Shown in pieces: positions 5,201-32,129 of a stretch of DNA of 38,853 nt (position 1 is the stretch's first letter; every line of letters starts with the position of its first letter). The notes under the pieces were generated by a model. That model was given only the letters and a program-made list of their open reading frames with translations, ran no database searches and was not told the origin of the DNA. This DNA comes from a virus. The position numbers and the translations under genes were made by a program. The stretch lies in the IMG/VR virus record IMGVR_UViG_3300000367_000004, positions 1-38,853 of that record; one strand, given 5' to 3'.

Positions 5201-5571
5201 CAGTAACCACCGACCCAGGTTCCGTTCAGGCCGCCACGGCAGTAGCTCACCACGGTACGGGCAGATCCGCGACCCCAGAAGCTGCGCTGCTCATAGATAC
5301 GTACCTGATAGTTCCTGGGAGCGTAGAAGATCGTCTGCTTCACCCGATACTGGTTGAATCCGGTGCTTCGCGAGGGGCCGCAATAGCGGTTCAGTGTGTT
5401 GCTGCCCGCCGACGAGGCCAGCACCACTCCGGCAGCTGACGCGTCTAGCTGGGCCGTGATGGGTGGCTTCTCCTGCGGTTTCATGTCGTAGGCTGCCGTC
5501 GCCATGCTGACCAGTGCCAGCAACATCACCAGCGAAATGAACACTGACCACACCTTGTCTGAAGGTTTCAT
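5200..5571 (-). CDS. Exported or membrane-anchored 123-aa protein
   Basis: Start ATG at 5571 overlaps the thyX stop by 4 nt (ATGA). Residues 6-27 (KVWSVFISLVMLLALVSMATAA) form a signal peptide or anchor. The mature part is a small soluble domain with Cys in RYCGPS and SYCRGG that could form a disulfide, and a Tyr/Arg-rich beta-type sequence. One of three exported proteins in this block (with 6717-7202 and 7264-7836), so an envelope role is likely. Confidence 0.7.
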   Translation of the reverse strand: MKPSDKVWSVFISLVMLLALVSMATAAYDMKPQEKPPITAQLDASAAGVVLASSAGSNTLNRYCGPSRSTGFNQYRVKQTIFYAPRNYQVRIYEQRSFWGRGSARTVVSYCRGGLNGTWVGGY

Positions 5572-6623
5572 CGGTTACTCCTTGCGGCTGCCGGGTCGGC
5601 CAGCCATTCTTCGGGGTATATTCCGGGCACTTGCTTCGGGTCACCGTAGTGATCTGGAACGTATGGGTCATCCGCACGACGGATGGACTCGGCCCCTTCT
5701 CCCAAGTAGTACAGTTCGTGGTCCAGGTGCCACTGGCTGCTCGGTACACCGTGCGCAGCGAACTCGTCAACGCGGTCGCGGATGGAGCAGTTCCTGTCAA
5801 AGCTGGCCTTGAACGGACACTTGCCCTGTTCATAGCAAACTGGCCGAAATACCTTCGCTATCTCCTTGAACTGCCATCCTCCGTTGTCGTACCATTCCTC
5901 CTGGTCGCCTGTCTGCCCGTAGCTGCCGATCGCCTGCGCGATGCCAGCGAACACTAGTCTCCAGTGGAACTGCGCTTGCGTGCACAGACGGTTTCCCGCG
6001 TGGTCCAGTAGATTCCGCAGATTCGTGTCATAGTGCACCCGCGTCGCCATGGCGTGCGGCAGCAATCCCCGCGCCTCTTCGGCAGGCATTCCACCTTCTA
6101 CGAGCCGTTCGTAGGCGTCCTCTATCACCAGAAGCGCGTCGTCCCATATCAGGCGCCATTGCTGCTCGCGATCTACGGCTACGCCGCCCAGCTCGCCAGA
6201 CTTCTTCGTACCGTGCAGCGAGGGCGGTAGCGAAGTGGCCTCACGGAAATCGCCGCCCATCACGGCGAATCTCATGGATTCCTGTGCGTAGACGGCGGTG
6301 CGCTGCCGGACCAGTTGGTGTGTGAACGCCCGGTCCACGCCCTCCAGCATGAAGTGAAAGTGCACGTACTCCAGCGGTGCCTTCAGGTGCGTGGCTTGCG
6401 CCTGCCTCCAGTAGTGCATCCGCTGTTCATCCGAGATCTGTGAGAGATCGTAGACTGGCTTGCCTTCGTACATCAGGCAGGCTGCCGCGATCTCACCCAG
6501 CGGATCGGGGCTCATGCTCAGTAGGTGTACCCGTGGCATGACGCCCGTGGACGGGTCGTAGTTGCCCTGCATCGGCGCGACCTCGTACTGCTGGTCGTCG
6601 CCCCACTTGCGTAGCTCGCTCAT
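5568..6623 (-). CDS. thyX: ThyX-family flavin-dependent thymidylate synthase, divergent
   Basis: 351 aa. ThyX makes dTMP from dUMP using methylene-THF, FAD and NADPH. The core is clear: FMLEGVDRAFTHQLVRQRTA, then the AQESMRF segment, and later a Thr/Asn/Arg-rich LPHAMATRVHYDTNLRNLL block. The signature RHRxxSxNxxSxR reads R106-Q-R-T-A-V-Y-A-Q-E-S116-M-R118: His, the first Ser and Asn are changed, while the essential second Ser and the Arg residues remain. It is longer than typical ThyX (about 220-250 aa), with a Cys-containing C-terminal extension. CCAGGAGCCAGT precedes ATG 6623. Normal activity is likely but not certain. Confidence 0.85.
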   Translation of the reverse strand: MSELRKWGDDQQYEVAPMQGNYDPSTGVMPRVHLLSMSPDPLGEIAAACLMYEGKPVYDLSQISDEQRMHYWRQAQATHLKAPLEYVHFHFMLEGVDRAFTHQLVRQRTAVYAQESMRFAVMGGDFREATSLPPSLHGTKKSGELGGVAVDREQQWRLIWDDALLVIEDAYERLVEGGMPAEEARGLLPHAMATRVHYDTNLRNLLDHAGNRLCTQAQFHWRLVFAGIAQAIGSYGQTGDQEEWYDNGGWQFKEIAKVFRPVCYEQGKCPFKASFDRNCSIRDRVDEFAAHGVPSSQWHLDHELYYLGEGAESIRRADDPYVPDHYGDPKQVPGIYPEEWLADPAAARSNR

Positions 6624-9286: not shown

Positions 9287-12200
9287 TCATCCCTCCGGAT
9301 CGATAACGTGCATCTTCGTCACGTAGATCGCCCTTCTCGCCAGGAATCCACGTTTGACACCTTGGACAAGAACGAAATGGCGGCCGAGTTCCAAGCCCCA
9401 TACCATCTTCTTGAACTTCGCGTAGCGCCACCTGTCAACCGTAATATCCAGGAGATCAGTGTCATCCTCACCAACCATTGCAACGTATTCGTTGAGGTGC
9501 GGGTCGCGAATTTTATCCGGATCCAGCTCCTCACCAGTGCGTGAGTAGTGCAATTCAAAGAGATCCTTGAGGTTTCGGTGCCGAATCGTACCGATCCAAC
9601 AAACCTCAACGTCCGGCCCTTTCTCGTATGGCACCTGAGAAGCAGTATGCGTCGGCCTCGGCACCCTGCCAAGGGCACCCGAGTAGATCTGCTCTTTCAC
9701 GTCCCTGATCGTGTTGCTCAGTAGATTCAGCTGAAAGGGGTCCTCTGCGTGCACGAACTCCTGGATCTTCTCTACGGTCTTGTCGCCCACACCCTTGATC
9801 TTCGTCAGGTCTGTCCACTGCTGGAATTCTGCCGGCGTTTCGGTCCTAGCCTGAATGATTCGCTCTCCGACTTTGGGTCCGATGCCATGGATCTGGCTGA
9901 ACCCTGCACGCACAGCGTTCGGGTGGCTGCCCACGGTCCAGCCCGTGCCGCTGTGCACCACGTCGGGCGGCTCAACCTGCAAGCTGCGCCCGTGCTTCTT
10001 CGTGTCACGCAGTAGTTCCTCTCCCTTGTTGATGCCGTAGGCGTTCTTCTTGTGCCCGTTCTTCTCAAGCGCTGCCACGTAGAACGCTTGCGGGTAGTGC
10101 CGCTTGAGCCACATCGTCCAGTAGGCGATCAGCCCGTACGAAACACAATGCGCAGCGTTGAAGGCATACGCACCTGAAGTGATCAGATTCTTCCAGATTT
10201 TCTGGGCTATCTCTTCACTCAGGCCATTCTCTAGGGCACCGTTGCGGAACCGCTCCCACTGCCTGTTGAATTCCTGCTCCCCTAGCTTCTTACTGATGAT
10301 CTTACGGATATACGCGGCAGCCGTCCAGTCAAAGTTCCCCACCTCGCGCACGATGCGCAAGATCTGTTCCTGGTAGATGATGCATCCATGAGTACCAGCC
10401 GTGATCTCGTCAACCAACGGGTGAAAGCTGGGCCGCTCCATGCGCCCGTGCTTCACGTCGATGTACTCACCGGTCGCCCCGCTGTGCAACGGGCCAGGCC
10501 GTGACAGCGCGTTGATGTCGGCTATCTCACGGAAGTTTTCAGGTTTGACGGCCTCATTCACAGATCTCGTGGCACGCCCGTCGAACTGGAAGATGCCGAT
10601 GACATCGTTCTCCTTGAATCCCCGGAGCGTTTCCTCGTCATCTAGCGGAATTGAGTAGAACTCGTCTAGCGTCATGCCGATCAGGTCGATAGCGATACCG
10701 ACCAGGCCCATCGTGCTCAAGCCAAGGTTGTCCAGCTTCAGGATGTTCAGGTACTCGGCGTCCCACTTATCCAGGCTGATGCTGCGCCGCCCATCGCGCT
10801 CGTACACCGCGCAGATATCTGTGAGTGGTTGGCTGGAAACGACCAATCCGGCAGCGTGCACGCCGAAGTTCTTCAGGTTGCCTTCTAGCAACGTGGCGTC
10901 CATGATCTCCGGGTGTTCCTCAACAATCTTGGCTGCCTCCTCGAACATCTCCACCGTGTCTTCAATGGTGGCGCTACTACGAAGATCCGCAGAACTGCGC
11001 TCGATCAGCAGATTCTTGAGGGTTTCTACCTTTCCGATGGGCACGCGGTACACCTTGCCCACGTCGTCCAGGCTGTTCTTGCCCTTGAAACCGGTGAACG
11101 TACCGATGACCGAAACTCTGTCCCTTCCGTACTTACTGGCCATGTAGTCGGCAACCTCGTCGCGCCGGTCGTCGGCAAAGTCCAGGTCAATGTCTGGCAG
11201 ATCGCTACGGCTGCGGTCGATGAACCGCTCGAAGATGAGGTCCGGAATATCCGTCCTGAGTGGGTTCACCTCAGTGATTTCTAGGAGCCAACACACCAGC
11301 GACGCGGCAGCCGAGCCGCGCGCAGGGCCAACGGGGATTCCTGCGCCCTTGGCGTACTTCACCATGTCACTGGTGATCATGAAGTAATCCGGGAAACCCT
11401 TTTCACGGATCAGGTCTACTTCGTACTGCATCTGCTGCTGATACTGCCGTTGCATGGCTTTCGGCATCTTGTGGCACTCACGCTTCTTCCAGCCTGCGCG
11501 CAGCCACTCCATCATCAGCTCGCCCGTGTCACCTTCGTACGGGTAACGCAGTTCGGCAGCTTTCGGCAGCGTAACGCTGCATCGCTCAGCGATCTCGCGC
11601 GTGTTACGAATAGCCTGTTCAGCTGCCGGGGGTGAGAGGCCACTTGCCTTCAGCTTTCGCCAGATCGCATTGTCGTCAACAGGGTGCGAACTGTCGATGT
11701 CGTAGTTCCACTCCTGCCCTAACTCCTTGAAATCTGTGTGTCTGCCGATGCTGTGGAGTACCTGCCGGATGCGGGCCATGCTGGGCGCTGGGTAGTGGAC
11801 GTCGGCAGTGGCAACGAGGGGTATTCCCAGCTCCCGGCCGAGTTGCTCGTAGCCTTCGTTGATGCGTCGTACATCATCCAGCTCTGGGAATATCTGAACC
11901 TCCAGATAGAACCGATCGCCCAGCATCCGCTGATACTTTCGTGCCACCCTACGAGCGTTCGCATAGCTCCCCTCCTTGATCCACTTGCCGCCGATCAGCG
12001 TCGTCGCAAGGATACTGGCCGTACACCCTGAGAGAACTATCAATCCCTCGTTGAATTCCTCTAGCATCTGGTTGGTGACCGTCATGTTGCGGAAGAAGTT
12101 GTGGTCCTCCCAGCCTGCCGAAACCACTCGCAGAAGGTTGCGATACCCAACGTCGTTCATGGCTAGCACCGTCAGGTGATTCTTGCCCTGGGCGAAGCCC

Positions 12201-12559
12201 TGCGGGTTCTTCTCAGTGATCTTGCCCGTACCTGGCACGCCCTGGTAGAGCTCGCAACCGAAGATGGGCACCACGCCCGCGTCCTTGGCAGCTTGCTCCA
12301 GCTTGGCGTGGCTGCTCACGTTGCCGTGCTCGGTCAGTGCCAAGTGCGTCATGCCTAGTTCTGACGCGCGCAGCACGTGGTCCTCAGGCATCCCTAGGCC
12401 GTCCTGGTAGCTGAACGTGCTGTGGTGGTGCAGGCTTACGAAGACCATCTCCTTGTCCGCAACGCGGACTTCACGATCTTCAGTTTCACCGAGCTTGCCG
12501 AACGTATATCCCTGATTTCGGGATACGTTGCGCTTCTTCAGTACGCGCTGTTCGGCCAT
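9287..12559 (-). CDS. dnaE-like: DNA polymerase III alpha subunit-like replicative polymerase (family C)
   Basis: 1090 aa, the presumed phage replicative DNA polymerase. It opens with a PHP domain (FVSLHHHSTFSYQDGLG, residues 40-54; TEHGN near 76-80; TADVHYP near 251-257). The palm has GPARGSAAAS (411-420) and PDIDLDF (455-461), whose Asp456/Asp458 are expected catalytic residues. FGVHAAGLVVS, a helix-hairpin-helix pair (GIGPKVGERI, IKGVGDKTVEKI) and a C-terminal OB-like part follow. It is slightly shorter than E. coli DnaE (about 1160). PHP metal ligands look largely present, so proofreading is possible. ATG 12559 overlaps the previous stop (TGATG); a GTG at 12571 is the alternative. Confidence 0.93.
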   Translation of the reverse strand: MAEQRVLKKRNVSRNQGYTFGKLGETEDREVRVADKEMVFVSLHHHSTFSYQDGLGMPEDHVLRASELGMTHLALTEHGNVSSHAKLEQAAKDAGVVPIFGCELYQGVPGTGKITEKNPQGFAQGKNHLTVLAMNDVGYRNLLRVVSAGWEDHNFFRNMTVTNQMLEEFNEGLIVLSGCTASILATTLIGGKWIKEGSYANARRVARKYQRMLGDRFYLEVQIFPELDDVRRINEGYEQLGRELGIPLVATADVHYPAPSMARIRQVLHSIGRHTDFKELGQEWNYDIDSSHPVDDNAIWRKLKASGLSPPAAEQAIRNTREIAERCSVTLPKAAELRYPYEGDTGELMMEWLRAGWKKRECHKMPKAMQRQYQQQMQYEVDLIREKGFPDYFMITSDMVKYAKGAGIPVGPARGSAAASLVCWLLEITEVNPLRTDIPDLIFERFIDRSRSDLPDIDLDFADDRRDEVADYMASKYGRDRVSVIGTFTGFKGKNSLDDVGKVYRVPIGKVETLKNLLIERSSADLRSSATIEDTVEMFEEAAKIVEEHPEIMDATLLEGNLKNFGVHAAGLVVSSQPLTDICAVYERDGRRSISLDKWDAEYLNILKLDNLGLSTMGLVGIAIDLIGMTLDEFYSIPLDDEETLRGFKENDVIGIFQFDGRATRSVNEAVKPENFREIADINALSRPGPLHSGATGEYIDVKHGRMERPSFHPLVDEITAGTHGCIIYQEQILRIVREVGNFDWTAAAYIRKIISKKLGEQEFNRQWERFRNGALENGLSEEIAQKIWKNLITSGAYAFNAAHCVSYGLIAYWTMWLKRHYPQAFYVAALEKNGHKKNAYGINKGEELLRDTKKHGRSLQVEPPDVVHSGTGWTVGSHPNAVRAGFSQIHGIGPKVGERIIQARTETPAEFQQWTDLTKIKGVGDKTVEKIQEFVHAEDPFQLNLLSNTIRDVKEQIYSGALGRVPRPTHTASQVPYEKGPDVEVCWIGTIRHRNLKDLFELHYSRTGEELDPDKIRDPHLNEYVAMVGEDDTDLLDITVDRWRYAKFKKMVWGLELGRHFVLVQGVKRGFLARRAIYVTKMHVIDPEG

Positions 12560-12900
12560 CAGCGGCCCCACTTGTTCCCAGCGCGGAAGTTGCGCACGAA
12601 GAACACCGCGTAGTTGATCAGGTCCATGGCGTCGTCTAGCAGAATCTTGTCAGTAGACGGGCTCTCTCGCCAGAACTTGCGGACCAGCCTCATGGACTTG
12701 CTGCGCAAGTGCGTCAGCGTGTCCATCCAGCCGTAGTCCTTCCATAGATCCTCGTAGGTGGAGTTGCGCTGCACGAACAGCTCGAACGCCTCCAGGTACA
12801 CCACCATCTGCTGAACGTTCGTTTCAGTGAGGCCGTAGCCACCGCGCCTCAGCACGTCTTCGGCTAGCCCTACCATCGGTTGAGGCAGATCGTATTCCAT
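12559..12900 (-). CDS. DUF1599-like protein, 113 aa
   Basis: Helical protein with the layout of DUF1599 (PF07659): an aromatic segment (YEDLWKDYGWMDTLTHLRSKSMRLVRKFW) then ILLDDAMDLINYAVFFVRNF, where an acidic pair precedes DLINYA. DUF1599 proteins often occur in phages beside nucleotide-metabolism genes and have been linked to nucleotide modification. Here it lies between the HAD phosphatase and the polymerase. Start ATG 12900; no strong ribosome site is obvious. Family call is moderately sure. Confidence 0.65.
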   Translation of the reverse strand: MEYDLPQPMVGLAEDVLRRGGYGLTETNVQQMVVYLEAFELFVQRNSTYEDLWKDYGWMDTLTHLRSKSMRLVRKFWRESPSTDKILLDDAMDLINYAVFFVRNFRAGNKWGR

Positions 12901-12922
12901 GATATAAGCCTTCCTGGGTCTG

Positions 12923-13588
12923 TTATTCTGGGTGGTGCTGTGCCCGCCATGCTAGCACGCGGGCTTGCAGCATGGTACGCGCTTCTTTGAGATTTACCGC
13001 TGTATTCATGTGAATTCCATGACCTGAGCACAGCCGTCGGTATGCGAGATTGTGCTCCCGCTTGATCATGATGGGCTCCAGCCCAAGGTGCTCCGCCTCG
13101 TCGAACTGCTCGGGCAGGTCCTCCAGCACCCCGATCACGCGGCCAGCCTGCGTCAGCTTGTGAAGCTGCTGATACTTGTCGTCGCCGTAGATCATGTAAT
13201 CGTACGGAATCTCATTGCGCCGGAGCCACTCGCGCGTGTCCGGGTCAACGTTGTCCAGGCGCAGGTGCGGGCGCGTGGTGCAGATCCACACCTCACAGCC
13301 CTCTTCTCGTAGAGTTCTGGCCAGTGTGCGGGCGCCCAGGTACGTCGGCATCGTGCGCTTCGCACCGCCCTGCCGATACGCGAGCTTGATCTCACGGTAT
13401 TGGGGCAGCTCTAGTCCTAGAAACTGCCAGAAGGTCTCCTCTCCGGTGTACGCGCGCCACGGCAGGAGGTTGCGACCCAACCAGCCCTCGGCGAATTCAA
13501 TGAAGTGTTCGTGGTAACGGCCCATCGTTCCGTCAATGTCCAAGGCCACCACTGGATCCATGGGCTTGCGGCAGTCGCTGCACTTCAT
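12923..13588 (-). CDS. HAD-superfamily phosphatase / nucleotidase-like protein
   Basis: 221 aa. HAD motif I is ALDIDGT (Asp17 nucleophile, Asp19 general acid). CTTRP supplies the motif II Thr and GVLEDLPEQFDEA fits the acidic motif IV. The cap-like insertion (FIEFAEGWLGRNLLPWRAYTGEETFW) resembles 5'-deoxyribonucleotidase or polynucleotide 3'-phosphatase HADs. An N-terminal CSDC may bind zinc. Start ATG 13588 follows GGGAGCTATGAT and lies 1 nt past the oxidoreductase stop. Substrate is unproven; a nucleotide or DNA 3'-phosphate fits the neighbourhood. Confidence 0.8.
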   Translation of the reverse strand: MKCSDCRKPMDPVVALDIDGTMGRYHEHFIEFAEGWLGRNLLPWRAYTGEETFWQFLGLELPQYREIKLAYRQGGAKRTMPTYLGARTLARTLREEGCEVWICTTRPHLRLDNVDPDTREWLRRNEIPYDYMIYGDDKYQQLHKLTQAGRVIGVLEDLPEQFDEAEHLGLEPIMIKREHNLAYRRLCSGHGIHMNTAVNLKEARTMLQARVLAWRAQHHPE

Positions 13589-13589
13589 A

Positions 13590-14441
13590 TCATAGCTCCC
13601 TCAGTTTGACGCTGAAATCCAACGCTTCGTCCTGCACGGTGTCAACGAGAACGTTCTTGTCCCAGCGCCCGTACCGACCGGTCATCAGCATCGGCACCTT
13701 GGGCTGCGCGTAGCAGTCGCAGTTCGTTGTAACTGGCTTCGTAATCGTGCGAATTCCTTCCAATGGAGGCCTCTTGTCACCCGAGTACTCGTATGCCGTG
13801 TGCCCGAAAAGGTGACTGCATCGGTACCAACCTGGAGAATCCTCACCATTGTAGACAATGCGATCTTGCTGAGGGCTGTCCTCGTATTGCGTGATATGGA
13901 CCGTTTGGTTGATGAACTGGTGCCCAAGATTGAAGCACAACCGCTCCAGTGGGATGGTGCTGATCCAAGCGTCGCAGTGAACCTTCAGCGCTCGGTCCTC
14001 ATGCCACGCGAACAGGTACCCCTCCTCGGCCAAGAACCTCGTGGACAACGACTGGATCTCCAACGGCATCACGCGAGTTTGCCACGTATTCCACAGATTT
14101 CGGTAGATACGGCGCAGGTTCCATGCGGGATACTCAGCGTCTTGGTAGCGGTCCCAGCTGACGGGAGCTTGCGGGTCGCCGTACACCTTCTTCGCGTAGC
14201 CATCGCGCGTGCCATGCCTTTCCACCTGGACCAGTGCATCGGGCCGCGTAGGGTCATTGAGCCCTAGCACTGCCTCGTGTGAATACTGAGCACCGGCGAT
14301 GAACGATGGTCGTGGCTTGCCCGTAAGATCAGGCTTACTGAACAGCCGAACCTGATGGCCCATCTTGTGTAGGGCGTTGGCTGCCACCAGGGCGCTTGGG
14401 CCACACCCTAGAATTCCTACGTCTGCGAACAGTTTGCTCAT
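13590..14441 (-). CDS. Rossmann-fold FAD/NAD(P)-binding oxidoreductase-like protein
   Basis: 283 aa. The N-terminal dinucleotide-binding motif is clear (VGILGCGPSALVAANALHKMGHQVRLFSK: GxGxxA with the basic end of strand 2). Later ISTIPLERLC and YRCSHLFGHTAYEY resemble flavin amine-oxidase or UDP-galactopyranose-mutase-like folds, but the protein is shorter than either, so it may be minimal. It sits between primase-helicase and HAD genes, each gap being 1-2 nt, so it is co-translated with replication enzymes. Substrate unknown; sugar-nucleotide or nucleobase chemistry is speculation. Confidence 0.7.
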   Translation of the reverse strand: MSKLFADVGILGCGPSALVAANALHKMGHQVRLFSKPDLTGKPRPSFIAGAQYSHEAVLGLNDPTRPDALVQVERHGTRDGYAKKVYGDPQAPVSWDRYQDAEYPAWNLRRIYRNLWNTWQTRVMPLEIQSLSTRFLAEEGYLFAWHEDRALKVHCDAWISTIPLERLCFNLGHQFINQTVHITQYEDSPQQDRIVYNGEDSPGWYRCSHLFGHTAYEYSGDKRPPLEGIRTITKPVTTNCDCYAQPKVPMLMTGRYGRWDKNVLVDTVQDEALDFSVKLREL

Positions 14442-14443
14442 GG

Positions 14444-17311
14444 TTACTGCTCCCTCATGTCCTTGAGTAGTTCTATCAGTTCTGGTGACAAGCGGTACGC
14501 GGTGCGCCCCGCCATCGTATCCGCCATAAGCATTCCCATCTGGCGGTACTTACTGATCTTGGCGTTGACGTCCTCCTTGCGCAGATTCATGTCGCTTTCC
14601 ATCGTTTGCGGCAAGAATACGACACCTGGCATGTCCCTGAAGAAACGCTCCAACTGCGCGTCACCCAGCAGATCGTTCATTACTGGAATTCTGTTGTCCT
14701 GGGCCAGCTTCTCACGGCCCTTGGCTTGCCGACTACGGTCCCTGTAACCGAACCCACGATTGCCATACAGGTGATCCAAGAACCTAACGGCATCCTTCAC
14801 GTGCTGCCGGGTCACCACGACGTTCGTGCCGTCGTCTGTGCTGTACGTCCGGGCAGCTATCGCTACGGCCATACGTGCGATCTTCTCGCGCATATTCGCA
14901 GCCTGAACTAGCGGTGGCTGCTCGGTGTAGCGGTGCCCCATCTTCACGGCTTGCGCCTTGGCTTCGCGCTCAGCGCCGCGCTGCCATAGCACCTGATGCG
15001 GCTTGCGCGACCACGCCCACATCACCAGGTCATGGCACAGATCTCGCGTAAATCTATGAGCTACGTGCCGTTCCCCGGTGGCATTGATAGCGTTCATGCT
15101 CACCTCGTCGCTGCGCACCGACATCGCGAAGTCAAGCCGTGCGATGTCCTCAGGGGCGCCGAGTAATTCTTGCACTACGTCCACCCCATCTCCCACTTCT
15201 CGCATAGAACGGCCACTGCGCGGGTTGCCCATCCAGATCAGGCGAGTGCGCGCTGGCACGCTGTCACTAGTGATCTGCCGAACCTCGGCTACGCCACTGC
15301 TTCGCACGCTGCTCATCTGCCCGATATCTTCGTGTGACAGCCCTGAAACCTCATCGATCACCACTAGGCGCCGATCACTCAGCGGTATGATTCCCCAGGT
15401 CACGGACCATTCGTCGTTGACCCGTTGGCTGCCGCCCAGCAAGCCCGATCGAGTTGCCGTTTCTGCTGAGACTACGCGCCCTGCTCGGTAATGCTGGGCA
15501 AGGCGTTCAGCCACTTCGCTCTTCCCGGTGCGGGTGTCGCCCGCCACCATCATCTCCAGCCATCCCTTGCGGAGCAGCTTGCCGTCGTAACGAAACCGCA
15601 GAACGCTGTGCCATACCAGATCAAAGGCAACGTGCAAGTTCTGCCGCCCTACGATATGGGTCACGTTAGCTGCCAGATCCTGGGCGATCTCGCCGCACTT
15701 CTTCAACGGCCGTTGCCCCTCTGCGGGCTGGAACACCTTGAGCCGTTCGTGCAGTTCGGGTGTCATGCGGAACCGGTCAAGGCTGGTCTCGGTGTCTTGC
15801 ACCTCCCAAGCCAAGAATTCGTTGACCTTCGTCCGCTCATTGTGAACAACCTTGCCCTTCACCTGAACGGTGCGGTTCTGCATTGTTGTGAATTCTGGTG
15901 AAACCATAATGCGCCGAATGCTGGTTAGGTCCTCCTTGTCTACGCGGCTGTCGCTTTCGTCTTCTTCATCTATGGCCCTCCTAACGCCCAACATCTGGCA
16001 GTTTTCGTATTCATGCACCTCGGTCGTCAGGTCCTTGCACAGCAAGCCAAGGTGCTTCCTCATGCTCTCTGCCAGGTTGGCACGCGGGTCCACGAGCTCC
16101 AGGATGGCATCGTCGCCAGGCGCCACGGCAACCTCCTGCTCTAACCTTCCGCCTACGCGCTCGCCCTTGCTGGACATCGGGCAGAACTGACACTTATCGC
16201 CCTTGTTCTCAAAGCATCCCACGGTCAGGCTAGACGGGTAGCTACGGGTGTCGCCCGTGCGTGCGGCCACTTGCGCTCTCATGTTCAGCGCTTGCCCTGC
16301 CAGCTTGATGTTCATGCTGTCCAGCACACTGATGTCCTGCGCGCCGTCCTGCGTTTCCTGTTTGCCTGAGATCTGCTTCGCACCGCGCATCAGCTCATCA
16401 AGTTCTTGCTTGAACAGCTCAGCCCCAACCTCGTGATACAGGTCGGTCAGGTCCTTGCCGTGCTTCTTCACTAGCTTGAACGGCAGCTGAACATCGTACA
16501 CAGACTCAGCGATTTCTTTGAGATGGTGGCGCACAACCTTCAATGCCTCGCGCCCGGTGCTGTCCCGGTCGTAGCAGACATACACCTTGCAATCCTTGAA
16601 ATGGACGCCCCACTCAGGCTTCCAGTTCTTGGCGCCACCACTGCCCGTCACGGCGTTGAATCCGTATTGCCTTGCGAGTAGGGTGTCCATCTCGCCTTCA
16701 CACAGCAGAACTGGTTCATCTGTGTCGGGTGCTGCCGGATACAGTCGGCGCTCGTTGTGCCCGGAAACTCCCCACATCTTCTTGTCGTGGTCGTGCAGAT
16801 CCAAGCGGTAACGCTTGAGATTGACGAGCTTACCGCCCTCAAAGAACGGAATCGTGTAGGCGCCCTCGTCGTTGTCCCAGCCCAGCTTGACCGCCTCGAT
16901 GGTTGCCTGCGTCAAGCCACGCCGTTCCTGTAATGCTGCCAGTGCATCCGGGTTGCTCATCAGTGCGCTGTGCCAACCTGCCACGCTGCCGAGGCTGGGT
17001 AGTGGCACCTCTCGCTTGCGCTTCGTGCGGATATCTACGACATCGGCCGTGAAACCTCCGCGATCTCCTTTCGCGGTAACCGTGCCGGTGGTTCCTCCCT
17101 CCTCCTCGATACGCCAGAGTAGTTCACCCAACGCCCCGTCCGGGCAGCCTGCGAAGCACCGCCACACTTGCTTGTCGAAGTTGTACGACGCACTCGCGTT
17201 CTGATCCTCGTGTAAAGGGCAGAATCCTGACCATTCGCCTTGCTGGTCCGGTCCGTCAACGACAAGCCACGGCCTCAGGGCGTTGATGTCAGGACGATCG
17301 TGATCCTGCAT
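14444..17311 (-). CDS. DNA primase fused to an AAA+ (MCM-like) helicase domain
   Basis: 955 aa. A CHC2-type zinc finger (Cys31, His34, Cys52, Cys56) is followed by a TOPRIM domain (LLCEGEMD, Glu205; CYDRDSTG, Asp248/Asp250), as in DnaG. A central Cys group (C366, C374, C377) may bind metal. The C-terminal half is an AAA+ ATPase: Walker A GDTRTGKS (591-598), Walker B LVVIDEVSG (Asp653/Glu654), then SSGVAEVRQ and IWMGNPRSG, more like MCM than the DnaB/T7 RecA type. It should unwind the fork and lay primers for the DnaE-like polymerase. Start ATG 17311, 13 nt after the previous stop. Confidence 0.85.
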   Translation of the reverse strand: MQDHDRPDINALRPWLVVDGPDQQGEWSGFCPLHEDQNASASYNFDKQVWRCFAGCPDGALGELLWRIEEEGGTTGTVTAKGDRGGFTADVVDIRTKRKREVPLPSLGSVAGWHSALMSNPDALAALQERRGLTQATIEAVKLGWDNDEGAYTIPFFEGGKLVNLKRYRLDLHDHDKKMWGVSGHNERRLYPAAPDTDEPVLLCEGEMDTLLARQYGFNAVTGSGGAKNWKPEWGVHFKDCKVYVCYDRDSTGREALKVVRHHLKEIAESVYDVQLPFKLVKKHGKDLTDLYHEVGAELFKQELDELMRGAKQISGKQETQDGAQDISVLDSMNIKLAGQALNMRAQVAARTGDTRSYPSSLTVGCFENKGDKCQFCPMSSKGERVGGRLEQEVAVAPGDDAILELVDPRANLAESMRKHLGLLCKDLTTEVHEYENCQMLGVRRAIDEEDESDSRVDKEDLTSIRRIMVSPEFTTMQNRTVQVKGKVVHNERTKVNEFLAWEVQDTETSLDRFRMTPELHERLKVFQPAEGQRPLKKCGEIAQDLAANVTHIVGRQNLHVAFDLVWHSVLRFRYDGKLLRKGWLEMMVAGDTRTGKSEVAERLAQHYRAGRVVSAETATRSGLLGGSQRVNDEWSVTWGIIPLSDRRLVVIDEVSGLSHEDIGQMSSVRSSGVAEVRQITSDSVPARTRLIWMGNPRSGRSMREVGDGVDVVQELLGAPEDIARLDFAMSVRSDEVSMNAINATGERHVAHRFTRDLCHDLVMWAWSRKPHQVLWQRGAEREAKAQAVKMGHRYTEQPPLVQAANMREKIARMAVAIAARTYSTDDGTNVVVTRQHVKDAVRFLDHLYGNRGFGYRDRSRQAKGREKLAQDNRIPVMNDLLGDAQLERFFRDMPGVVFLPQTMESDMNLRKEDVNAKISKYRQMGMLMADTMAGRTAYRLSPELIELLKDMREQ

Positions 17312-23426: not shown

Positions 23427-24716
23427 CTACCGTTCGCGCCACGCGCGGCAGTGCGAGATCTGCATCGGGATGCGCTGCACAGCGGCAGGCGGACGGATGT
23501 CCTGCCACACGGCCAGGTTCATGATGATGTTCATGTCCCCGCGCGGTGTGTTGCCAATGCTGCGCACAGCACGATCGTTGAAGTAGAACGTGATCCCGTT
23601 GCTGCGCAGGTGCGCACCGAACTTCATCCACGGGCCGATGGGCGTTTCTGCCCCCGATTGGTACGTAGGCATTGGAGATCCGCCGAATTGCACAGAACCC
23701 TGGTTGCTGCCGCCCATCCCGGAGCCGTGGGTCCCAGCGGTGTAACTCTGTCCACGCCCGGACCAACTCGGCCAATACTCGTAGATGTCAATCTCGGTCA
23801 CCTGCGACCCGCCAGGAACCTGCCAGGTCCAGAACGCAGGCCACGAGCCGGACCCAACGCTGGGCAGCCGCACGCGCTGTTCCAGGTACACACCCGTACG
23901 GAAGCGAAATCCGCCAGTTGTGGGCGAACTGGTCAGCAATGCCGATCGCCACGGGTAGTTGATCCCGTTCTGCGTGGTGCTCTCGCGGGTAGCGCGAAAG
24001 TGCAGAATTCCGTCGCGAACCCAGGCGTTGTCGGAACGTCGTGCATCGTTCCACTCAAGCTGGCTGTTCTGGAGGCGGTTGCCCTGGCCGTCGCGCTGTG
24101 ACGAACTGGTGTGAGACCACTTGCGCCAGTCAATCGCGTTGCCCTCGAACTCGTCGCGCCACGCCATCGTCCAGTTGCCAGGTGCCGGAGGGTTTCCAGC
24201 CGGATCTCCGCCGCCACCACCGGGCTGAGTGGTCACGGTTGCCGTGAACTGCGTGCCCTGCACGTCGGTCCAGTTGCCATCGCGGAACACCGCGATCCAT
24301 CCGGTGTACGTACCCGCTGGCAGCGCACTACGAGAAGCAGTGAAGTTTCTCGCTGAATTCGCTGAGAACTGCACGTTGTCGGTGTGGCCGAAGTCCAGGT
24401 TCTGTCCAGCAGAATTGCGCAGCGCGACCACAACCTGCGCAGCCGTGGCAGCCTGCGAAAAGCTGAGTGAGTACGCAACGTTCAGTGTTTGTGCTGAGAT
24501 CGTCGCGGTGGCTTGCCCCGTGACGGCAGGTTCTCCGGGCGCAGGTGGCTCCGGGTCTGGCTCCGGGTCTTCTGGGTCTGGCTCCGGGGGTTCCGGGTCC
24601 GGGTCGGGCTCTGGCTCGGGTTCGCCGCCGGAATCCTCCAGCTGCGCTACGCGCTGTTCTAGGGCAGCGTGTTCCTCGTAGGTGGGAACGCGCGTGCCCT
24701 TGTCCTCGGTTGCCAC
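23427..24716 (-). CDS. GH16-family glycoside hydrolase with coiled-coil and proline-rich linker
   Basis: 429 aa. A short helix (TYEEHAALEQRVAQLED) is followed by a Pro-Glu/Asp linker (31-63), a beta-sandwich (65-162) and a Gly linker. A GH16 domain (about 181-429) has the catalytic signature EIDIYE (Glu308 nucleophile, Asp310, Glu313 acid/base), with WPAFWTWQ before it, as in beta-glucanases. No signal peptide, so it is released by lysis or carried on the virion; the N-terminal helix could trimerise it. Likely targets are beta-1,3/1,4-glucans or a host capsule. GTG 24716 follows AAGGAGCCAAC. A structural-type protein among early genes is unexpected. Confidence 0.85.
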   Translation of the reverse strand: MATEDKGTRVPTYEEHAALEQRVAQLEDSGGEPEPEPDPDPEPPEPDPEDPEPDPEPPAPGEPAVTGQATATISAQTLNVAYSLSFSQAATAAQVVVALRNSAGQNLDFGHTDNVQFSANSARNFTASRSALPAGTYTGWIAVFRDGNWTDVQGTQFTATVTTQPGGGGGDPAGNPPAPGNWTMAWRDEFEGNAIDWRKWSHTSSSQRDGQGNRLQNSQLEWNDARRSDNAWVRDGILHFRATRESTTQNGINYPWRSALLTSSPTTGGFRFRTGVYLEQRVRLPSVGSGSWPAFWTWQVPGGSQVTEIDIYEYWPSWSGRGQSYTAGTHGSGMGGSNQGSVQFGGSPMPTYQSGAETPIGPWMKFGAHLRSNGITFYFNDRAVRSIGNTPRGDMNIIMNLAVWQDIRPPAAVQRIPMQISHCRAWRER

Positions 24717-30892: not shown

Positions 30893-31315
30893 CTAGGGCT
30901 TGGGCCAGATGTAGGGCAGGTCCGGAGGAGTTCCTGGCCATAGGGCGCCGTAGTGTGCAGGATTCTTGCGAATCAGGTTGCTGCGGTGGCTTAGGTGGAA
31001 CGCCTCCCAGCCAAGCCACCCTGGCAGCCTGTCGTCAGGGCTTGCGAACAGGTGGTCCATCTCCATGTTCAGGTACGCACCGTGCGCCTTGCCACGCCTG
31101 CGCACCCACTCGTCGTTCATGGCAGCGCTGTACGCAAGTAGGGCGCCTAGGTGGCCCCGCCACGCCTGGACCGCTGGGTGGCGCTGCCACCCGTAGTCAG
31201 GGTCAGTCAGCGCCCTACCGATCTGGCGTGATTCTATGATCTGCTTGCCCAATCTCTGCAGATCTAGCGATTCAGCTGATGCACTGAACGACGGCAGCGG
31301 GAGGAAGGTCTGCAC
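30893..31315 (-). CDS. Pyrimidine-dimer DNA glycosylase-like protein (MSMEG_6728/Pyr_excise type)
   Basis: 140 aa. MQTFLPLPSFSASAESLDLQR, LGKQIIESRQI, GWQRHPAVQAWRGH and a final NPAHYGALWP follow the pattern of the MSMEG_6728/T4 endonuclease V-like family, which acts on or is annotated for UV-damaged DNA. Length is typical. Start GTG 31315 has AGGA upstream. Likely a DNA-repair enzyme, though biochemical proof for this family is limited. Confidence 0.8.
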   Translation of the reverse strand: MQTFLPLPSFSASAESLDLQRLGKQIIESRQIGRALTDPDYGWQRHPAVQAWRGHLGALLAYSAAMNDEWVRRRGKAHGAYLNMEMDHLFASPDDRLPGWLGWEAFHLSHRSNLIRKNPAHYGALWPGTPPDLPYIWPKP

Positions 31316-31343: not shown

Positions 31344-32129
31344 CTAGAATTCTAGCTCGGCCTCCGTGCCATCGTACAGCTTCTTCCAGCTGATGCGTGG
31401 CCACACCTGGCCGTTCTTGCGGGTGGTCAAACTGACGAACTCTGGGTATTCAGCCGCTAGTTCTGTAGCTTCCTTCAGCGCACGGGTGTTCACAGCGTCC
31501 TCGCTGCTCAGCTGCTCAGCGCTTTCGTTGCCACCCTTCGCCCATCGCGCCTGCACGCCTGCGCAGTGCGCCTCAGTGTGGATCCACCACGGCCCGTAGC
31601 CTGCCAGCACCGCACGGATCACCAGTTCAGCGTCCTCGCGCAGCCAATACTTCGTGCGAATTCCGCCGAGTTCCAGGTATAGATCAATGGAATACGCTTT
31701 CACGTTGTATCCCATGGATCCCTTGTGTGGCTGAACGCCCGTGTGCGGTGGCATGTCCAGCCAGTTCTGGTAGATGCGGTTCCAGGCGCCGATACCCAGC
31801 TGTTCAGGGTTGTCCTGCAACCATTGCTCCATCAGCTGCCAGTTGCGCGCCTCTCCTGCTGGAACGTAGTCGTCGTCGCAGATCGTAATCGTGCTGTGGC
31901 CACGCTTGGCAGCGTGCTCAACTGCCGAATTCCTGCTGTACGGCAGCCCTTGGTCCTGCTTCTCAAGCGTTACGATCTGGGCGCGCACACCCGTTTCGTC
32001 AATGGCTCGCTCGTAGGCTGCCACGTCGGGCGCCTCCACCACGAGGCGGATCTCCATCCCGGTTGCTGCCCACTTGGGTAGGTGCTTCTTGACCAGTTCT
32101 GCGCGCTGTCGCGTGTTGATATACAGCAT
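31344..32129 (-). CDS. Glycosyltransferase (GT-A fold, GT2-like)
   Basis: 261 aa. GLPYSRNSAVEHA (Arg66, Asn67) followed by ITICDDDYVP (DDD at 85-87) is the nucleotide-sugar and metal site of GT-A enzymes. LGGIRTKYWLREDAELVIRAVLAGYGPW provides the downstream acidic catalytic segment. Phage GTs decorate modified DNA bases, host surface glycans or virion proteins; its place among early genes favours DNA or host envelope over virion. It comes just after a hairpin (32162-32193). ATG 32129 with AGGACAGAAC. Confidence 0.82.
   Translation of the reverse strand: MLYINTRQRAELVKKHLPKWAATGMEIRLVVEAPDVAAYERAIDETGVRAQIVTLEKQDQGLPYSRNSAVEHAAKRGHSTITICDDDYVPAGEARNWQLMEQWLQDNPEQLGIGAWNRIYQNWLDMPPHTGVQPHKGSMGYNVKAYSIDLYLELGGIRTKYWLREDAELVIRAVLAGYGPWWIHTEAHCAGVQARWAKGGNESAEQLSSEDAVNTRALKEATELAAEYPEFVSLTTRKNGQVWPRISWKKLYDGTEAELEF

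Follow-up and report, generated by a model that had tools for sequence, protein, structure and literature searches.

In the 38,853-nucleotide stretch of viral DNA analysed here (the window), three genes between the primase-helicase and DNA polymerase genes, together with an altered ThyX encoded nearby, are on balance likely to be the version, found in actinophages, of a module with which phages modify nucleotides. What it makes is most likely a deoxyuridine nucleotide modified at C5 for use in phage DNA, a chemistry that we infer, and it probably yields a modified thymine-type DNA letter which shields that DNA from bacterial enzymes. The evidence consists of observed gene linkage, loss of signature residues from ThyX, homology with gene sets of other phages and absence of ThyA. 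An initial annotation had proposed a modification group linked to ThyX. This link is supported, given that ThyX accompanies the flavoprotein in 46/46 flavoprotein-bearing records tested, that its signature residues are lost, that a homologous module exists and that Wifcevirus phages are resistant to restriction; a glycosyltransferase (1/46) and tolerance of GAATTC sites (enriched about 8-fold), by contrast, fail as props.

All of the genes concerned lie on the minus strand. A primase-helicase with CHC2, Toprim and MCM domains (14444-17311) is followed, in order, by a flavoprotein of 283 aa which is annotated as an ‘oxidoreductase’ and carries a FAD-type GxGPS motif (13590-14441; phrog_8720), a HAD phosphatase of 221 aa with a DxDGT motif and of the NT5C/phrog_415 type (12923-13588), a small all-helical protein of 113 aa whose family is related to DUF1599 (12559-12900), and a DnaE-like DNA polymerase III alpha (9287-12559), whose open reading frame opens at 12571 and has its likely ATG at 12559. 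The first and last of these are flanking context. From the primase-helicase onward the gaps measure 2, 1 and 22 nt, and the stop of the 113-aa gene overlaps the DnaE start; the tight packing originally described for the three genes is thus borne out by the open reading frames. The window is almost the whole of a viral record of 39,778 bases which is itself a fragment, and the absence of a gene from it therefore proves little. Near the contig end, 456-1265 encodes a trypsin-like serine protease domain (PF13365, 6e-10). A Pro/Glu-rich stretch with a GH16-like motif, EIDIYE, recognised by eye at 23427-24716, marks a possible glucanase, for which Pfam gave no GH16 match.

The flavoprotein was found in 120 actinophage records, and a profile scan of IMG/VR added 80 further loci. 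The conserved actinophage order is Cas4, Sak4, primase, flavoprotein, HAD, 113-aa family, DnaE and ThyX. The HAD is present in 83/91 and the 113-aa (DUF1599-like) family in 72/91 flavoprotein-centred loci; both values are lower bounds, because part of the 91 loci are short, and both are conditional on the flavoprotein, by which the loci were picked. The genes therefore co-occur in related phages, a check which the initial annotation had proposed, and their arrangement reflects a conserved module and is not due to chance. About 43/120 actinophage records lack the HAD, which is absent from many Microbacterium and some Gordonia phages and is therefore not indispensable. Members of the module turn up across hundreds of unrelated phages, and its genes have previously been grouped into phams with no function described for them; the oxidoreductase pham has 116 members in clusters AE, BN, D, DG, DV and EF (PMC11385102). 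The window also encodes a Pyr_excise protein (PF03013, T4 endonuclease V family; 30893-31315, minus strand); about 38 related loci carry its homologue immediately ahead of the flavoprotein, which makes it a candidate accessory of the module. In Nocardia phage P3.1, QSL67825.1 (L004:8969-9670) is seemingly a wrong-frame annotation, the HAD homologue being encoded in a different frame at L004:8929-9639.

The AlphaFold model of the flavoprotein has a pLDDT of 93.7, and its closest solved folds in Foldseek are p-hydroxybenzoate hydroxylase (PHBH) and UDP-galactopyranose mutase (E about 1e-7, TM 0.5). No Pfam family scored above cut-off, and PDB profile searches returned the generic FAD N-terminal motif only; the C-terminus carries a GRYGxW motif. 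A scan of 84,980 bacterial and archaeal species by a short-pattern method, which may miss distant relatives, confirmed none, and host pathways therefore offer no clue. In the window HAD, motif I (DxDGT) is present in both sequence and alignment. The protein matches phrog_415 at 1.9e-19 and Pfam NT5C at 19.7 bits, below the curated cut-off of 24.8, and is predicted to be a 5'-deoxyribonucleotidase. The label ‘DUF1599-like’ is apt for the family of the 113-aa protein, 8/33 members of which match DUF1599 (PF07659, nucleotide modification associated domain 1; best E 1.6e-6). It does not hold for the copy encoded in the window, which gave no PF07659 match in a Pfam search. The model of this protein consists of four helices, and a fold search returned nothing significant, only weak matches (E 5-6) to RS21-C6/DCTPP1. 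The family is linked to DUF6378-like domains through phrog_1485, the same region of which is matched by both helical families; the 113-aa protein may be a nucleotide-pool enzyme.

The assignment of ThyX (351 aa, 5568-6623, minus strand) is confirmed by its match to PF02511 (E 6.4e-28; 98.3 bits, cut-off 24.8). Counts of ThyX and flavoprotein obtained with tblastn are equal in Gordonia (46), Microbacterium (36) and Mycobacterium (26) phages, as genus-level totals. Published work describes Tyr91 of ThyX as critical and strictly conserved, and the Thermotoga enzyme reacts 100- to 1000-fold more slowly when Y91 is mutated (PMC8316439, PMC11940539). At the sites equivalent to H53, H79 and Y91 of Thermotoga ThyX, the canonical residue occurs in 0/129 aligned module ThyX proteins, which retain R78, R80, R90, R147 and R174 (Thermotoga numbering). 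The window protein has RQR for RHR, Leu at the His53 position and, at Tyr91, the Phe substitution that has been studied in vitro. Module ThyX thus has the PF02511 fold, these five arginines and E58 in common with canonical ThyX of Thermotoga and Mycobacterium, whereas H53, H79 and Y91 are replaced; ThyX of Thermus and of Bacillus phage KLEB27-1 retains H79 and Y91. With these three residues lost and the arginines kept, module ThyX should, judging from its sequence, bind dUMP and flavin and probably does not act as an ordinary dTMP synthase. In the ThyX tree long branches separate canonical from module proteins, and because of their length one loss of the residues looks the same as several. A ThyA-family gene (PF00303) was found in 0/49 module records, the window's fragmentary record included, in a search in which controls matched in 9/14 cases; a TET/JBP gene (PF12851) was likewise found in 0/49, in a search where controls matched none either.

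The state of ThyX also bears on a rival explanation, ordinary nucleotide-pool management, in which virion DNA is normal, ThyX makes dTMP, and the other parts serve dNTP balance (HAD and small protein) or the recycling of flavin or another cofactor (flavoprotein). Such a role would suit a set of parts which are all nucleotide-metabolism-like and lie within a replication operon; several phages, KLEB27-1 among them, use canonical ThyX for dTMP supply, and common enzymes can cut Pbunavirus DNA (PMC6521218). It is rather unlikely, however, in view of the loss of H53, H79 and Y91 from 129/129 module ThyX proteins and their retention in canonical ones, the strict pairing, seen in two groups of phages, of ThyX with a single flavoprotein specific to phages, and the unexplained restriction resistance of Wifcevirus (PMC11990801).

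The second of these phage groups infects proteobacteria. The next ThyX relatives come from Pbunavirus, Wifcevirus, Myosmarvirus, and Rhizobium and Xanthomonas phages, and a homologous set of flavoenzyme, altered ThyX, HAD, DUF6378-like domain and often FabG occurs in Pbunavirus, Wifcevirus, Myosmarvirus and Carpasinavirus. Neighbours of ThyX in these phages include a ‘polynucleotide kinase/phosphorylase’, in which a helical domain comes after a HAD domain, often FabG, and a hypothetical protein that is a flavoenzyme homologous to the window flavoprotein (E 2.2e-7 over the full length in a profile comparison; E 1.3e-9 and 96% in a deeper one). The HAD profiles of the two groups match at E 3.9e-9 (96%), and the 113-aa family matches the proteobacterial helical domain more weakly (80%, E 1.4e-5, one helix); a negative control gave E 0.29. 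Flavoenzyme and ThyX counts by genus are 291/290 in Pseudomonas, 27/27 in Escherichia, 9/9 in Serratia and 6/6 in Xanthomonas phages, and all four parts are present in 35/35 proteobacterial-phage IMG/VR loci with a length of 14 kb or more, with FabG in 27. The set of these four phage genera resembles that of the window in its homologous flavoprotein and HAD, in the ThyX residues lost and in adjoining replication genes. It differs in that a single protein often combines the HAD and DUF6378-like domains and FabG is generally present, whereas the window encodes the two as distinct proteins and showed no FabG. No published function for the proteobacterial set was found in the literature consulted. 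Three proteins annotated as ‘polynucleotide kinase/phosphorylase’ (L095:2533-3549, L096:3803-5221 and L099:4798-5673) show HAD and DUF6378-like helical domains, and Pfam finds no kinase domain in them.

In the proposed pathway, altered ThyX would use dUMP and a one-carbon unit from folate to reach the flavin-CH2-dUMP intermediate and, instead of completing dTMP, would release a C5-substituted dUMP, for example 5-hydroxymethyl-dUMP. The release of this compound is plausible, since acid quench of the ThyX reaction yields it. The flavoprotein, with FabG where present, would tailor the C5 group, while the HAD and the DUF1599-like protein would degrade competing canonical nucleotides (dTMP/dTTP). 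DnaE would then incorporate the modified product, and the resulting DNA would be poorly recognised by restriction and other DNA-targeting defences. It is quite possible, if still tentative, that the ThyX lineage without H53, H79 and Y91 has turned into a dUMP-modifying enzyme whose product is a C5-functionalised dUMP and not dTMP, and which, with a phage-only flavoprotein, builds an undescribed base in at least two unrelated phage groups, many phages used therapeutically among them.

The system would belong to phage pyrimidine modification, a kind already known, with an entry enzyme that is probably new. In the hydroxymethyl pyrimidine pathways of T4 and SPO1, a C5 one-carbon unit is added before replication and the competing nucleotide is degraded. 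Both features are shared with the proposed module, whereas T4/SPO1-type pathways use hydroxymethylases of the ThyA family, a gene of which is present in 0/49 module records. Thymidine hypermodification in ViI, M6 and SP10 involves flavin chemistry in some branches, and it resembles the module in this respect and in having thymidine as the presumed target; of its hmdU kinase and aGPT-PPlase genes, none was found among the module's neighbours as annotated. Thymidine nucleotides are cleared by a dTMP phosphatase or dTTP pyrophosphatase in the dU-DNA pathway of PBS1, DSS3_VP1 and PhiR1-37, the dTMP phosphatase that serves dU-DNA in PBS1 being of HAD type (PMC12697855). The entry enzyme of that pathway, however, is dCTP deaminase and not ThyX, and no flavoprotein is described there (PMC12697855). 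If the proposal is true, ThyX would provide a flavin-based route to modified pyrimidines besides those already known to use ThyA, TET or a deaminase. Proteins annotated as ‘ThyX-like thymidylate synthase’, ‘oxidoreductase’ and ‘polynucleotide kinase/phosphorylase’ would be corrected to probable parts of one pathway, and the analysis points to candidate genes in several actinophage clusters and in Pbunavirus, whose members are in wide use for phage therapy.

Nucleotide signals are among the possible targets of HAD and NTP-hydrolase-like proteins, and as a counter-defence the module might alter RNA, a host nucleotide, a nucleotide signal or some other target instead of phage DNA. Apart from EcoP1_I, none of the defences tested, RM systems included, affected the Wifcevirus phages Bas98-101, for whose resistance no protection mechanism is known (PMC11990801). 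This resistance extends beyond restriction systems, as a non-DNA target would allow. This alternative is nonetheless improbable: ThyX retains its dUMP- and flavin-site arginines, replication genes flank the module in both phage groups, and purified DNA of the PB1-like phage P1-14pyo is incompletely cut by EcoRI and HindIII, which points to the DNA itself (PMC3634792). Modification of phage DNA is the preferred reading, and, since Bas100 carries the module, it would, if true, supply a testable genetic cause for the Wifcevirus resistance. A Pbunavirus isolate has been mapped with HindIII, EcoRI or XbaI (PMC6521218), and protection in that isolate is therefore at most partial. For the module actinophages, no restriction-phenotype data were found in the literature.

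The initial annotation had also counted a GT-A-like glycosyltransferase (31344-32129, minus strand) as a pathway member, and a hydroxymethyl pyrimidine finished by this enzyme would make the pathway one of pyrimidine glycosylation. The enzyme has weak similarity to TAGT (PF20691; 23.4 bits, 6.5e-5) and to phrog_842 (HMC glucosyltransferase; 2.2e-5), and its gene adjoins the Pyr_excise homologue, elsewhere a module member. The TAGT score, however, is below the cut-off of 27.5, no relatives of the glycosyltransferase were found in phages or IMG/VR, and the window's copy is the only one in 46 module records. It therefore falls outside the conserved set and was rejected as a core part of the module; a glycosylated pyrimidine is highly improbable as the module's product, and the enzyme could be a private add-on of the window phage.

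The many GAATTC sites had been taken as tolerated through modification. The window contains 42 of them, spanning 365 to 36108, against an expectation of 5.3 (order-1 Markov) or 9.8 (order-2), an excess of about eight-fold at the first of these which makes GAATTC its most over-represented hexamer; the sites are thus actively enriched and not merely tolerated. The excess is present in all codon frames and between genes, 42/51 AATT in the window fall within GAATTC, the flanks are not conserved, and relatives are without the enrichment. Palindromic hexamers overall are depleted, with an observed/expected ratio (O/E) of 0.80 in the window, a median of 0.78 in module phages and 0.87 in Troll4. As the sites are enriched, which calls for an explanation of its own, while palindromes are depleted, the GAATTC count was discarded as evidence of protection. 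Palindrome avoidance was also rejected as a test of modification, because modified and unmodified phages overlap in O/E (unmodified TM4, 0.66; the hmU phage SPO1, 0.79; T4, 0.96). The window is, in addition, strongly depleted in TCGA (37 per strand where about 153 are expected) and is free of GGGCCC and GTCGAC, which suggests host restriction pressure on the window phage.
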